DNA from: an uncultured Opitutaceae bacterium
Lineage (GTDB): Bacteria > Verrucomicrobiota > Verrucomicrobiia > Opitutales > Opitutaceae
Length of the DNA: 38,960 nucleotides
NCBI GenBank assembly: GCA_937942145.1
Contig: CALDFV010000032.1
Span: 1 to 38,960 of the forward strand
Direction: 5' to 3'
Of this stretch, positions 5,100 to 28,281 are shown in pieces. The notes below the pieces were generated by a model, which saw only the letters and a program-made list of their open reading frames with translations, was not told the DNA's origin and made no database searches. Position numbers and translations under genes: made by a program. Each line of letters starts with the position of its first letter. Within the stretch, counting starts at the first letter, position 1.

Positions 5100-5890
5100 C
5101 GCAATGACCCTTTCAATTTCTCCAATACGCTCAGAGGCCAATTGTCGATCAACCGTACCCCCTCCAAATTAACCGCCCCAAAACGGCGACCTCCTTCATC
5201 CACTACATACTCTACTTCGAAACCCGCTTCCCTAAGCTCGCTAGTCGCTTCCTCAGGAGTCGAGGCAGTTGTGAGTATGCGGGGGAAAACTGCCGCCTTT
5301 TTTCGGCCTGCTTCTGAAAGGCGGCGGTTTCGCGAGCTCAAGGCCAATCCATCGTCCGCCCTTGCCGTTTCACAAGCGACAATCTCAATAGGTAGAAAAA
5401 ACGCTTCCACCATTCCTTTGACCAATCGTAATTGCTGGTAGTCTTTCTCGCCAAAGTAAGCACGCTGCGCTCCAGACAAATTCAGCAATTTCAGGACAAC
5501 GGTTAATACGCCATCGAAATGACCCGGCCGCTGCGATCCTTCCATAGAAAGCGAATCCTGGCTTTCCGATACCTTAAACCGATAAGTGTCTGGGTACATT
5601 GCTTCAAAGTCAGGAGCAAACACCACATCCACTCCAAGATCCTCCAGCAATGCGAGGTCCTGCTCAAAATTAGCGGGGTAGGTTTCGTAGTCGGACGCGT
5701 TGTTAAACTGAGTTCGATTCAGAAAGATGCTCACCGCAGTCAGTTCATTCTCAGCCAACGAACGACGCACAAGCGAGCTATGGCCTTCATGCAAGCCCCC
5801 CATTGTCGGGACAAATCCTAGTGAATGTCCAACCACCAGTTGTGAACGAAACACCATCCACTCGCTAAGACTGCGAAATATCGGAATCAT
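5096..5890 (-). CDS. panC: Pantothenate synthetase
   Basis: Joins pantoate to beta-alanine using ATP through a pantoyl-adenylate. The 264-residue protein has PTMGGLHEGH (HIGH-like nucleotide motif, residues 29-38), RPGHFDGVLTVV, GEKDYQQL and LALSSRNRRL, all canonical. It is slightly short for PanC (about 280). The conserved block usually read as FVNPxQF is here FLNRTQF, with Arg in place of Pro; Asn and Gln are kept. Start and stop both overlap neighbours as ATGA (with panB upstream and coaX downstream), which marks a tightly coupled operon. Function is very likely retained. Confidence 0.96.
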   Translation of the reverse strand: MIPIFRSLSEWMVFRSQLVVGHSLGFVPTMGGLHEGHSSLVRRSLAENELTAVSIFLNRTQFNNASDYETYPANFEQDLALLEDLGVDVVFAPDFEAMYPDTYRFKVSESQDSLSMEGSQRPGHFDGVLTVVLKLLNLSGAQRAYFGEKDYQQLRLVKGMVEAFFLPIEIVACETARADDGLALSSRNRRLSEAGRKKAAVFPRILTTASTPEEATSELREAGFEVEYVVDEGGRRFGAVNLEGVRLIDNWPLSVLEKLKGSLR

Positions 5891-6678
5891 GGCTTATACT
5901 CTCCATCGCCCGGGTAGGCACGATCCCGAACGTCTTCGCAGTATCCTTCCACTGCCCGATTAATCATCTGATCCGCGTCCATGTAGCGACGCGCAAACGG
6001 AGGCTGGAAGTCAGAGTCCAACCCCAGGAGATCGTTTAGAACCAAAACCTGTCCAGAAGTCTCCGGGCCACTACCGATTCCAATCGTAGGGATCCCCAGC
6101 GCATCGGTCACTCGTTCCGCCACTTCGCTAGGAATGCACTCGAGTACAATTGAGAAGCAGCCTGATTCTTCCAATTCGAGCGCCTCATCAAGAAGCGCTT
6201 GGGCCGCATCGCCGTTTCTAGCCTGAATTTTAAACCCCCCGAACTCGTTGACCGATTGGGGCGTCATGCCTAAGTGACCCATCACAGGAACGCCCCCATC
6301 CACCAGTCGAGTGATCAGTTCAATATTTCCACGGCATCGCTCGACTTTTACCGCATTCGCCCCGGCCCGCATTAGTTTGGCCACCGCGTTCGTAGACGCC
6401 TCAATCCCACCTCGGTAGGAAAGAAAGGGCATATCACCTATGATTACTTTATTTGGCGCCCCACGCCGAACTGCCGCCGTGTGCGCTTCCATCATTTCGA
6501 CAGTCGCGTGGATGGTGCTGTCAAACCCGTGCACCACCATCGCACAGGAGTCCCCCACTAAGATCGAGTCAACGCTCGTCTCGTTTAGGATTTTGGCCGT
6601 TGCTGCGTCGTAGCACGTCACCATGGTGATCGGCTCGCCAGCGGCTTTCCGCTTGTAAAAATCTGGAATCGTTTTCAT
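5887..6678 (-). CDS. panB: 3-methyl-2-oxobutanoate hydroxymethyltransferase (ketopantoate hydroxymethyltransferase)
   Basis: Transfers a one-carbon unit from methylene-tetrahydrofolate to 2-oxoisovalerate, giving ketopantoate. The 263-residue TIM-barrel protein shows MVTCYDAATAKILNE, VGDSCAMVVHGFDST (metal-binding Asp), IIGDMPFLSYRGG, GVPVMGHLGMTPQSVN and GIGSGPETSGQVLVLNDLLG, all PanB blocks in order. It is the first gene of the panB-panC-coaX-panD cluster, so its promoter should lie in the 238 bp between it and murA; I saw no clear promoter there. A ketopantoate reductase (panE) is not in the window. Confidence 0.97.
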   Translation of the reverse strand: MKTIPDFYKRKAAGEPITMVTCYDAATAKILNETSVDSILVGDSCAMVVHGFDSTIHATVEMMEAHTAAVRRGAPNKVIIGDMPFLSYRGGIEASTNAVAKLMRAGANAVKVERCRGNIELITRLVDGGVPVMGHLGMTPQSVNEFGGFKIQARNGDAAQALLDEALELEESGCFSIVLECIPSEVAERVTDALGIPTIGIGSGPETSGQVLVLNDLLGLDSDFQPPFARRYMDADQMINRAVEGYCEDVRDRAYPGDGEYKP

Positions 6679-27617: not shown

Positions 27618-27733
27618 TTTATTTGAGCGTTAAATTTCATCACAAACGAGTCAGCCATTAGGCCATTCGATAGGCGTCTGCAGATGTTATTCCTATACTT
27701 GTTCTTTCAATAGCTATGGATTTCAAGATATTC

Positions 27734-27762
27734 TTGACAGCAATCCTAATTCGACGTCTTTT
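27734..27762 (+). promoter_or_regulatory. Possible promoter of tRNA-Pro
   Basis: A consensus -35 box TTGACA (27734-27739) is followed after 17 bp by TCTTTT (27757-27762), a poor -10. The predicted start would lie about 8 bp before the tRNA. The -35 is convincing, the -10 is not. Confidence 0.4.
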
Positions 27763-27776
27763 GACGCCTCTTTTTG

Positions 27777-27853
27777 CGGGGCGTAGCTTAGCCTGGTAGA
27801 GCGCCTGGTTTGGGACCAGGAGGTCGAAGGTTCGAATCCTTTCGCCCCGACCA
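27777..27853 (+). tRNA. tRNA-Pro (anticodon UGG)
   Basis: A complete 77-nt cloverleaf. The acceptor stem pairs CGGGGCG (27777-27783) with CGCCCCG (27843-27849), followed by discriminator A and an encoded CCA (27851-27853). The anticodon stem CCTGG/CCAGG encloses TTTGGGA with anticodon TGG at 27811-27813. The T arm has GGTTCGAATCC. UGG reads CCN proline codons, more efficiently when U34 is modified to cmo5U, the product of CmoA/CmoB encoded 11 kb upstream. Confidence 0.98.
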
Positions 27854-28035
27854 TTTTCACTACTGAGAATGGTCGCACCGCAAATCGGACACGCCTTCCC
27901 TGAAGGAGTCCCCGCCCGAAAGGCTGCGAACCGGGAAAGGTTCGACGAAGCGAGCCCGCGAGCGGAGAAGGGGCTTGCGAAGCAAGAGTCCGAAGGACCT
28001 CGACTGAAAGGAGAGCCAATCCTTTCGCCCCGACC
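27835..28035 (+). repeat. Hairpin train bracketed by 18-bp copies of the tRNA-Pro 3' end
   Basis: The bases 27835-27852 of the tRNA (AATCCTTTCGCCCCGACC) recur exactly at 28018-28035, 183 bp later. Between them lies a chain of small hairpins: CCTTC/GAAGG (27894-27906), GCC/GGC with loop CGAAA (27914-27924), CGAACC/GGTTCG with loop GGGAAA (27927-27944), CTTGC-GAA-GCAAG (27974-27986) and GTCC-GAA-GGAC (27988-27998). Such spacing and the tRNA-tail copy recall the E. coli tyrT repeats (about 178 bp, each starting with 19 bp of the tRNA 3' end) that produce rtT RNA. The alternative is a small element inserted at a tRNA attachment site; no integrase is present. Confidence 0.7.
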
Positions 28036-28281
28036 GCTTATTCAACAGAGAAATCTGGTCTTCTGCCACATAATTGAGCTTCGCGTCAGATGTTCACGAC
28101 TAAATCAGTAATCGGTACAACGAGCGTGCCTTAACACCCAGGTCCTATTTTCCCAGTCACCGACTGAATTGCCTTAAGTTCAAATGCATGAAAAGGATCC
28201 TCCAAAGCTTTCCGCACTAAAACCTGTCAAAGTCGCGGGTTGCAAAAGCGCGGCAATCCGTTGTTCTTCCTCCATACGAAA
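28036..28281. other. Intergenic region before the HDOD gene
   Basis: About 245 bp following the second tRNA-tail copy. I see no gene, terminator or clear promoter. A TTG at 28240 is in frame with the HDOD protein but gives an unusual N-terminal extension. Confidence 0.45.

Follow-up and report, generated by a model that had tools for sequence, protein, structure and literature searches.

The element directly behind the tRNA-Pro gene (anticodon TGG) of this Opitutaceae genome is a real, structured, tRNA-linked repeat and a distant member of the TLR class of E. coli, one that stays below the cut-off of the Rfam family RtT (RF00391). Its unit opens with the tRNA tail (A58 to CCA) and the trailer, goes on with the inverted T-arm, GGTTCGAC and a series of short hairpins that form the core, and closes with a second tail; tail and inverted T-arm each belong specifically to the tRNA that precedes them. 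The parts are listed below by position in the window, that is, the whole stretch of 38,960 nucleotides that was analysed; R1 is a covariance model built from 30 elements, the window's included, and A1 an alignment.

27777-27853, plus strand: tRNA-Pro (anticodon TGG), the upstream stable RNA (ARAGORN; RF00005 at 69.5 bits, Rfam bounds 27777-27850)
27835-27853, plus strand: tail copy 1, A58 to CCA of tRNA-Pro itself (sequence and ARAGORN)
27848-27875, plus strand: trailer hairpin including the CCA end, without a T run behind it (read by eye)
27894-27906: perfect stem of at least 4 bp
27903-28036, plus strand: full-length sub-threshold match to RF00391 (RtT), 22.7 bits against a cut-off of 45, E 0.044
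27917-27932, plus strand: rcT, inverted copy of the tRNA-Pro T-arm, CGAAAGGCTGCGAACC (R1 alignment, family rule)
27927-27944, plus strand: hairpin CGAACC(GGGAAA)GGTTCG, between rcT and the direct half T-arm (perfect-stem search)
27939-27946, plus strand: GGTTCGAC, the direct 5' half of the T-arm, at which the conserved core begins (sequence, alignment A1)
27947-28017, plus strand: core, GAAGCGAGCCCGCGAGCGGAGAAGGGG and short hairpins (alignment A1, model R1)
27974-27986, plus strand: hairpin CTTGC(GAA)GCAAG (perfect stem, compensatory changes in the alignment)
27988-27998, plus strand: hairpin GTCC(GAA)GGAC (perfect stem, compensatory changes in the alignment)
28006-28026: perfect stem of at least 4 bp
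28018-28035, plus strand: tail copy 2, with 18 of the tRNA tail's 19 bases (exact repeat)

The 18-mer AATCCTTTCGCCCCGACC, reported in the initial annotation as an exact copy of the tRNA 3' end, indeed occurs exactly at 27835-27852 and 28018-28035 with a spacing of 183, and spans A58 to the second C of CCA in tRNA-Pro. Even with up to three mismatches allowed, these are its only two sites in the window, and with 0.03 expected a chance origin is ruled out. Nor is it the sole repeat, since further ones exist, and the likeness continues into the trailer at 80% identity over 35 nt. Between or against the repeats lie five perfect stems of at least 4 bp, besides a GC-rich stretch and the trailer hairpin seen by eye, which bears out the earlier count of at least five short hairpins; of the four GAA- or GNAA-like loops assigned to them, a GAA loop was found on two of the five stems (27974-27986 and 27988-27998), the other GAA-like loops standing on 3-bp stems only. 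The rcT stem is able to pair with tail copy 2 and with GGTTCG. R1 matches 27916-28027 at 93.2 bits (E 7.8e-23), by construction, because the window copy (L001) is among its 30 sequences; at curated cut-offs, Rfam returned a single match in the whole window, the tRNA. An antisense open frame (27723-28019, minus strand, GAKGFEPSTSWSQTRRSTRLSYAP) crosses the tRNA and the element and is almost certainly no gene; antisense frames over such stretches are often annotated.

The insert is also present in related genomes, where the initial annotation had proposed to look for it. In the window's own genome the core GGTTCGACGNAGCGAGYYCGCGAGCG occurs four times, behind tRNA-Pro, tRNA-Ser and two tRNA-Glu genes; a looser core pattern occurs nine times, and R1 gives 14 matches (E 0.01) at several isotypes. 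At the same threshold 23 of 38 relatives were matched, and at E 1e-5 elements were found in 46 of 177 genomes of the order Opitutales. The Pro locus itself was searched in 11 genomes of the genus and carries an R1 match in seven (G000, G001, G002, G004, G005, G007 and G010), the copies in G005 and G007 being decayed. The same search found no element in G008 and G009, G003 ends in a contig end at this locus, and in G006 an IS110-family transposase gene (PF02371; L266:2388-3236, minus strand) lies directly behind tRNA-Pro and the inverted T-arm, at the place of the core.

Among 44 R1 matches in four genomes, the window's own excluded, 30 have an intact tRNA on the same strand within 700 nt upstream, and one further match lies 749 nt behind tRNA-Leu with two units nearer to it. 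Of the remaining 13, judged by eye, four follow remnants of tRNA 3' ends, three sit at the end of one contig, two lie within tRNA-Leu genes that are broken in the T-loop, one is the next unit of a tandem, and for three (G010:3837455, G007:4038729 and G007:3223211) no tRNA was visible. A tail copy with 0-2 mismatches is found in 15 of the 31 tRNA-linked matches of this unselected set, so about half of them have lost or changed it. In the first 203 loci, a tRNA or tmRNA lies no more than 450 nt upstream of 150 of the 193 unique core matches; among the other 43 are contig ends, remnants and about a dozen that resemble chance matches in coding DNA.

The tail copy behind the core follows the tRNA in front. 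Across 148 tRNA-linked elements, which stand behind tRNAs of twelve amino acids, the best tail copy has no mismatch in 65, one in 35, two in 5 and three or more in 43; the tail of the own tRNA is thus found at 0-2 mismatches in 105 of 148, and that of another isotype in none of 148 (best control four mismatches). Where a core is present, 112 of 145 tRNAs have an inverted T-arm that scores at least 12 of 15; among 125 control stretches, 5 do. Complementarity was counted in the 111 or 104 of the 148 elements that passed a filter of at most three tail mismatches and a recognised arm. At position 63 the inverted arm is complementary to its tRNA in 95 of 104 and at position 64 in 89 of 104, with a drop in the acceptor stem; at position 50 it is so in 84 of 111 (35 with another isotype) and at position 51 in 91 of 111 (37 with another isotype). 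Positions 57 and 58 are complementary in 2 and 5 of 111 only, which gives the loop ATGAGAA; opposite GGTTCGA, such a loop would allow a tandem G-A pair. The commonest arm, GGATGAGAACC, was seen in 5 of the 24 elements found by the core alone, most others being one to three bases off. In G001 (L028), whose tRNA-Pro T-stem is unlike that of its relatives, the inverted arm and the tail copy both follow. The trailer is often copied along with the tail: 39 of 91 pairs agree at 30 or more of 35 positions against 31 of 2000 random pairs, and 51 of 91 at 20 or more against 119 of 2000, the random control here mixing related species. All this fits the suggestion, made at the outset, of a tRNA-derived repeat, with copies behind many tRNAs that carry the tail and arm of their own tRNA.

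Loci L082-L201 (at least 120 stretches) were fetched by a pattern of the inverted-arm loop plus GGTTCGAC, so that selection accounts for how conserved their loops are and, in part, for their model scores; the 24 Opitutales elements found by the core alone and E. coli (L081, taken by accession) are free of it. We also considered whether an inverted T-arm is an ordinary feature of tRNA genes without a core, and rejected this: of 58 tRNAs in which no core was recognised, 12 score at least 12, as do 4 of 54 in the control, and to the eye most of these 12 have a diverged core, one having an IS110 insertion (L013) and another (L052) looking like a one-unit state.

The window's insert on its own is barely better folded than shuffled sequences (RNA z -1.60; element -1.38), and the case for structure therefore rests on its relatives. 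In a 30-element alignment with 18 pairs, 91.7% of the cells are paired, and 102 cells are changed on both sides against 35.1 in shuffled alignments, a count that none of 500 shuffles reached; covariation is 0.443 against 0.143 in the shuffles, and when the alignment is slid by 1-3 columns less than 50% is paired in all versions. The shuffle control keeps the relatedness among the sequences, and the 30 come from several genera and isotypes. The number of pairs with a change on both sides does not differ in these 30 elements (10 against 9.4 in shuffles). The compensatory changes that had been proposed as a check are thus present in the hairpins of relatives, in keeping with the structural part of the structured-RNA option. 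Single-sequence RNA folds of 12 elements gave z from 0.01 to -5.92 (mean -2.50), 2 of the 12 folding no better than shuffles; with DNA parameters the mean is -1.92, and RNA parameters are better in 9 of 12.

The loops carry a signature of their own. Of 315 core hairpins, taken from 107 unique elements, 150 are closed by GNA triloops, where 2.8 would be expected in shuffles; GNRA tetraloops account for 7 of the same 315, and between tRNA and core 13 of 187 hairpins are GNA. Such triloops are described as making very stable DNA hairpins (PMC4686876). The signature is strong and would suit hairpins of DNA, yet the folding energies do not favour DNA. G-U against A-C mismatches number 18 to 25 at positions 63-66 of the rcT:tail helix, 9 to 4 in the hairpins, 20 to 15 in the Opitutales alignment and 29 to 6 in the Enterobacterial alignment, two nearly fixed T-G columns being set aside in the last. 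Together with the folding energies, these counts give no clear verdict for RNA or DNA, the Enterobacteria leaning to RNA.

With permissive filters and 501 bases searched, RtT aligns to the window over its full length (model 1-130 of 130), including the closing helix, GGUUCGA and the tail; because its 22.7 bits miss the gathering cut-off of 45, we file the element only as related to RF00391. In the window's whole genome RtT has no match at E 0.01. Among ten loci tried, a relative's Pro element (L010) reached 41.4 bits (E 1.1e-4), L104 had E 6.4e-4 and L100 was above the cut-off, the other seven giving no match. In the genomes of ten relatives RtT picked up the Pro element in G002 (E 1.9e-6) and, in G001, two elements, which makes a match at E 0.01 in 2 of 10 and none at the cut-off; among 14 named control genomes, it matched in E. 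coli only. Conversely, R1 finds four units at E. coli tyrT (E 1.3e-7 to 2.1e-6). In MG1655 the tyrT-tyrV stretch has the 19-base tail six times, two of these being tRNA ends, and between the tails stand GGGGAAGGATGAGAAGCTTCG, an inverted T-arm, together with GGTTCGACTCGAGCG and hairpins whose loops are GCA and GAA; the annotated RttR ends there on the last base of a tail copy. The likeness to tyrT that had been proposed from the spacing therefore goes beyond it, with the parts in identical order and significant covariance-model matches both ways, on copies of the relatives and not on the window's. The sequence relation to the E. coli TLRs holds via relatives, the match of the window itself being full length but weak.

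The TLRs of E. coli, of which 22 are given in ten loci (Egan and Landy, 1978; Rudd, 1999; via PMC8144298), have tails of 18-19 bp and, in the same account, have been known since 1978 with no agreed function, an early claim on amino-acid starvation having been withdrawn (PMC8144298). They share with the window a 3' end of 18-19 bp identical to the 3' end of the upstream RNA gene (18 bp exact in the window), a same-strand position immediately after a stable RNA gene, GC-rich hairpins, and occurrence as one copy or as several in tandem. Unlike them, the present elements belong to Opitutales in the Verrucomicrobiota, with 14 model matches at several isotypes, have a core of the form GACGNAGCG..GCGNAGANGGG instead of GACTCGAGCG..GAGAG, and have relatives in Nitrosospira with tmRNA-linked copies. 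The 5S-linked TLRs RrA, RrB and RrF likewise have a hairpin core and a tail copy between two terminators, but take their tail from 5S, and RrB binds CsrA; an inverted copy of the 5S end was looked for in the TLR of E. coli rrnB and not found. RtT has further been reported in Actinobacillus (PMC4986893) and Thioalkalivibrio (PMC8092127), and rtT-like elements upstream of some enterobacterial genes have been assigned to BIMEs (PMC2965389); their position tells against a strict tie to stable RNAs.

The architecture is not confined to this order. The Opitutales-type core pattern occurs in 8 of 288 genomes of the phylum, all in the window's order, and the scan of species genomes for the inverted-arm loop plus GGTTCGAC returned at least 120 stretches. 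Of the first 80 loci among the matches listed, 66 have a same-strand tRNA upstream. In the other 14, L094 and L101 look like accidental matches to coding sequence, six appear by eye to be contig ends or remnants, and six come from Nitrosospira, Nitrosovibrio and a Burkholderiaceae MAG: L136 and L159 (Nitrosospira/Nitrosovibrio) have a tmRNA upstream, confirmed by Rfam for L159 (tmRNA 5466-5827, element 5867-6011), L082 and L127 show by eye a CCA end of similar kind and L092 and L108 none. L082, L092 and L127 are three copies on one Nitrosospira contig. Record titles among the matches listed include Enterobacteriaceae, Thioalkalivibrio, Salinisphaera, Opitutales, Akkermansiaceae, Flavobacteriales, Chitinophagales and others, as well as one Chlamydiae MAG and one Lentisphaeria MAG, for which contamination is possible; proteobacteria, Bacteroidota and, with the same caveat, a Chlamydiae MAG thus have similar units following a tRNA or tmRNA gene.

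R1 matched 13 of 15 loci at E 0.1 (all but L118 and L128), with E-values of 8.2e-9 in Chlamydiae, 1e-6 in Deltaproteobacteria, 1.6e-5 in Lentisphaeria and 4.7e-4 in Flavobacteriales, which are flattered because all loci except L081 were picked by pattern. In whole genomes it gave three matches in an E. coli strain, two in the Chlamydiae MAG and one in Nitrosospira (E 0.036), and it missed both units of a Lishizhenia MAG; R1 has little power to detect distant members. The papers that our literature search returned gave no description of TLRs outside Pseudomonadota, and in them we did not meet the wide range, the rule of the inverted T-arm, the tmRNA-linked copies or the GNA signature. The Rfam family sX4 (RF02223) gave sub-threshold matches over tRNA-Ser plus trailer (L062 1330-1486; L041 1540-1705), a hint that sX4 may itself include a tRNA-Ser gene.

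Tandem arrays are common, as in E. coli tyrT, in G093 and at the Met locus of G023, with five R1 matches in a row. Within one genome, core identity across isotypes has a median of 0.60 and a maximum of 0.82 (91 pairs, 80 elements), so no recent jumping and no recent copies at unrelated sites are seen, and active transposition was rejected. The earlier idea of a tiny mobile element therefore finds no support in its active form, the motif moreover occurring in only 2 stretches of a viral collection. No empty site with a clean join was noticed on visual inspection of two loci, the Pro locus and a single Glu locus. Clustering of cores by taxon is weak, with medians of 0.60 for the same genome and another isotype, 0.58 for another genome and isotype and 0.61 for another genome and the same isotype. 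Breaks fall in T-loops. The core lies directly in the T-loop of tRNA-Gln genes in Thioalkalivibrio and of a tRNA-Tyr gene in Trabulsiella, with intact copies adjoining; the interrupted loci are L100 (tRNA-Gln, complement 5265-5338), L120, L158, L193 and L197 (near 5435-5590), and ARAGORN still calls the tRNA in L100, L120 and L193. A deletion between GGTTCGA of the tRNA and GGTTCGAC of the element would explain these genes. In G007 (L258, L261) a second tRNA-Pro tail with its element and downstream DNA lies in opposite orientation, with no tRNA body and a join at the T-loop, and in G010 (L247) a tRNA-Ser tail and element are likewise joined at the T-loop without the tRNA body. Concerted change by unequal recombination is our preferred account of the matching tails.

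A script search found no terminator on the plus strand between tRNA-Pro and the element, and run-on transcription is therefore plausible here. Elsewhere, of 97 first units at least 47 are preceded by an intrinsic terminator, and in the proteobacterial-type set 40 of 59 are, by a script that misses long-loop terminators such as those of L003 and L041; transcription driven by the tRNA is therefore not general. Some E. coli members are transcribed (PMC8144298), and RttR is annotated; for the 5S-linked ones, transcription and a proposed processing at the repeat, with RNase E as the proposed enzyme, are described, and the end of the RrB transcript was mapped 3 nt behind the 5S-tail copy (PMC8144298). 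Hfq was found in 0 of 19 relatives, and an Hfq-bound RNA is unlikely in them.

We consider it about an even chance that tRNA-Pro(TGG) is followed by a TLR of the tyrT/rtT type known from E. coli, an old structured repeat that is probably co-transcribed with the tRNA and processed at the tail copy. Of this, the data show directly the parts and how they match the upstream tRNA, the conservation of the hairpins, the tandem copies elsewhere and the relation to RtT. The tRNA transcript would run on through the element, as the absent terminator suggests; the inverted T-arm would pair with GGTTCGAC and the second tail, closing a compact RNA with the short hairpins as its arms, and the tail copy, as a tRNA-like 3' end, may be used by the enzymes that process tRNA or 5S, releasing a small RNA. 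Recombination between tandem units by unequal crossing-over, rather than jumping, would keep the tail and trailer copies alike.

The leading competitor, which we rate clearly lower though as a real contender, is a repeat that works at the level of DNA without RNA function, its hairpins acting in single strands or as cruciforms, and that is maintained and multiplied beside tRNA genes through T-arm and tail recombination, selfishly or as a by-product. Hyperstable GNA triloops in nearly half of the core hairpins (150 of 315; PMC4686876), terminators ahead of at least 47 of 97 first units and T-loops as breakpoints, in the tRNA-Gln and tRNA-Tyr genes with the core inside and at the duplicate and truncated loci, are all consistent with it. 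It sits less well with the slightly better z under RNA parameters (9 of 12 elements), with the preference for G-U over A-C in the Enterobacterial alignment (29 against 6, apart from the two T-G columns), with cores that show no recent spread across isotypes, and with the 5S-linked E. coli members described as transcribed and processed (PMC8144298). Chance repetition next to unrelated GC-rich hairpins, to which the unremarkable fold of the window itself (z -1.60) would be no obstacle, is already refuted by the rarity of the 18-mer, by own-tail copies in 105 of 148 elements against none and by the 102 against 35.1 changed cells, and we give it practically no weight.

The stretch from the T-loop to the 3' end of tRNA genes is the site of action of many integrases, and the two tails, which span it, could be the attachment-site copies left as a scar when a phage or island integrated; breaks at the T-loop in G007 and G010 would agree with this. 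Such integrative elements share the direct repeat from T-loop to 3' end, but the present element of about 165 bp leaves no room for an integrase and has a conserved hairpin core, with compensatory changes and behind tRNAs of twelve amino acids. With its motif in 2 viral-collection stretches only, a phage attachment site was rejected, and a scar of this kind is quite improbable. A role as CsrA sponge merits even less credence. Part of the inverted T-arm, AGGGATGAG, resembles a CsrA site, and the window's own genome has CsrA. The 5S-linked RrB binds CsrA (PMC8144298), and in 19 relatives the pattern was suggestive: CsrA is present in 10, 9 of which have at least five R1 matches, and the nine without it have 14, 6, 3, 2, 1 and four times 0. 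Across the 177 Opitutales genomes, however, elements occur in 46, CsrA in 34 and both in 6 (Fisher p 0.28); 40 of 46 element-bearing genomes lack CsrA, which is therefore not the general partner in the order, and the sponge is refuted as a general role. In addition, the 19 tRNA-operon TLRs are given scores below 0.01 as CsrB-like (PMC8144298). CsrA itself is patchy in the order (34 of 177 genomes).

Beyond the tyrT/rtT-type reading that we prefer, a bolder view, which we hold improbable but well short of negligible, is that of one ancient class linked to stable RNAs in several phyla. Its inverted T-arm, altered at positions 57-58 for a tandem G-A pair with GGUUCGA, would bind the T-arm of its own precursor or the second tail and so act as a self-directed maturation switch for that tRNA, whose specificity would be maintained because the tail, the inverted arm and the tRNA evolve in concert.

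In summary, the same architecture stands behind tRNA and tmRNA in several phyla and comes with a rule and a covariance model, which turns a curiosity of a single genome into a comparative problem. CsrA binding is already excluded as a general role in the order, and lineages with many copies and lineages with decaying copies can now be compared.
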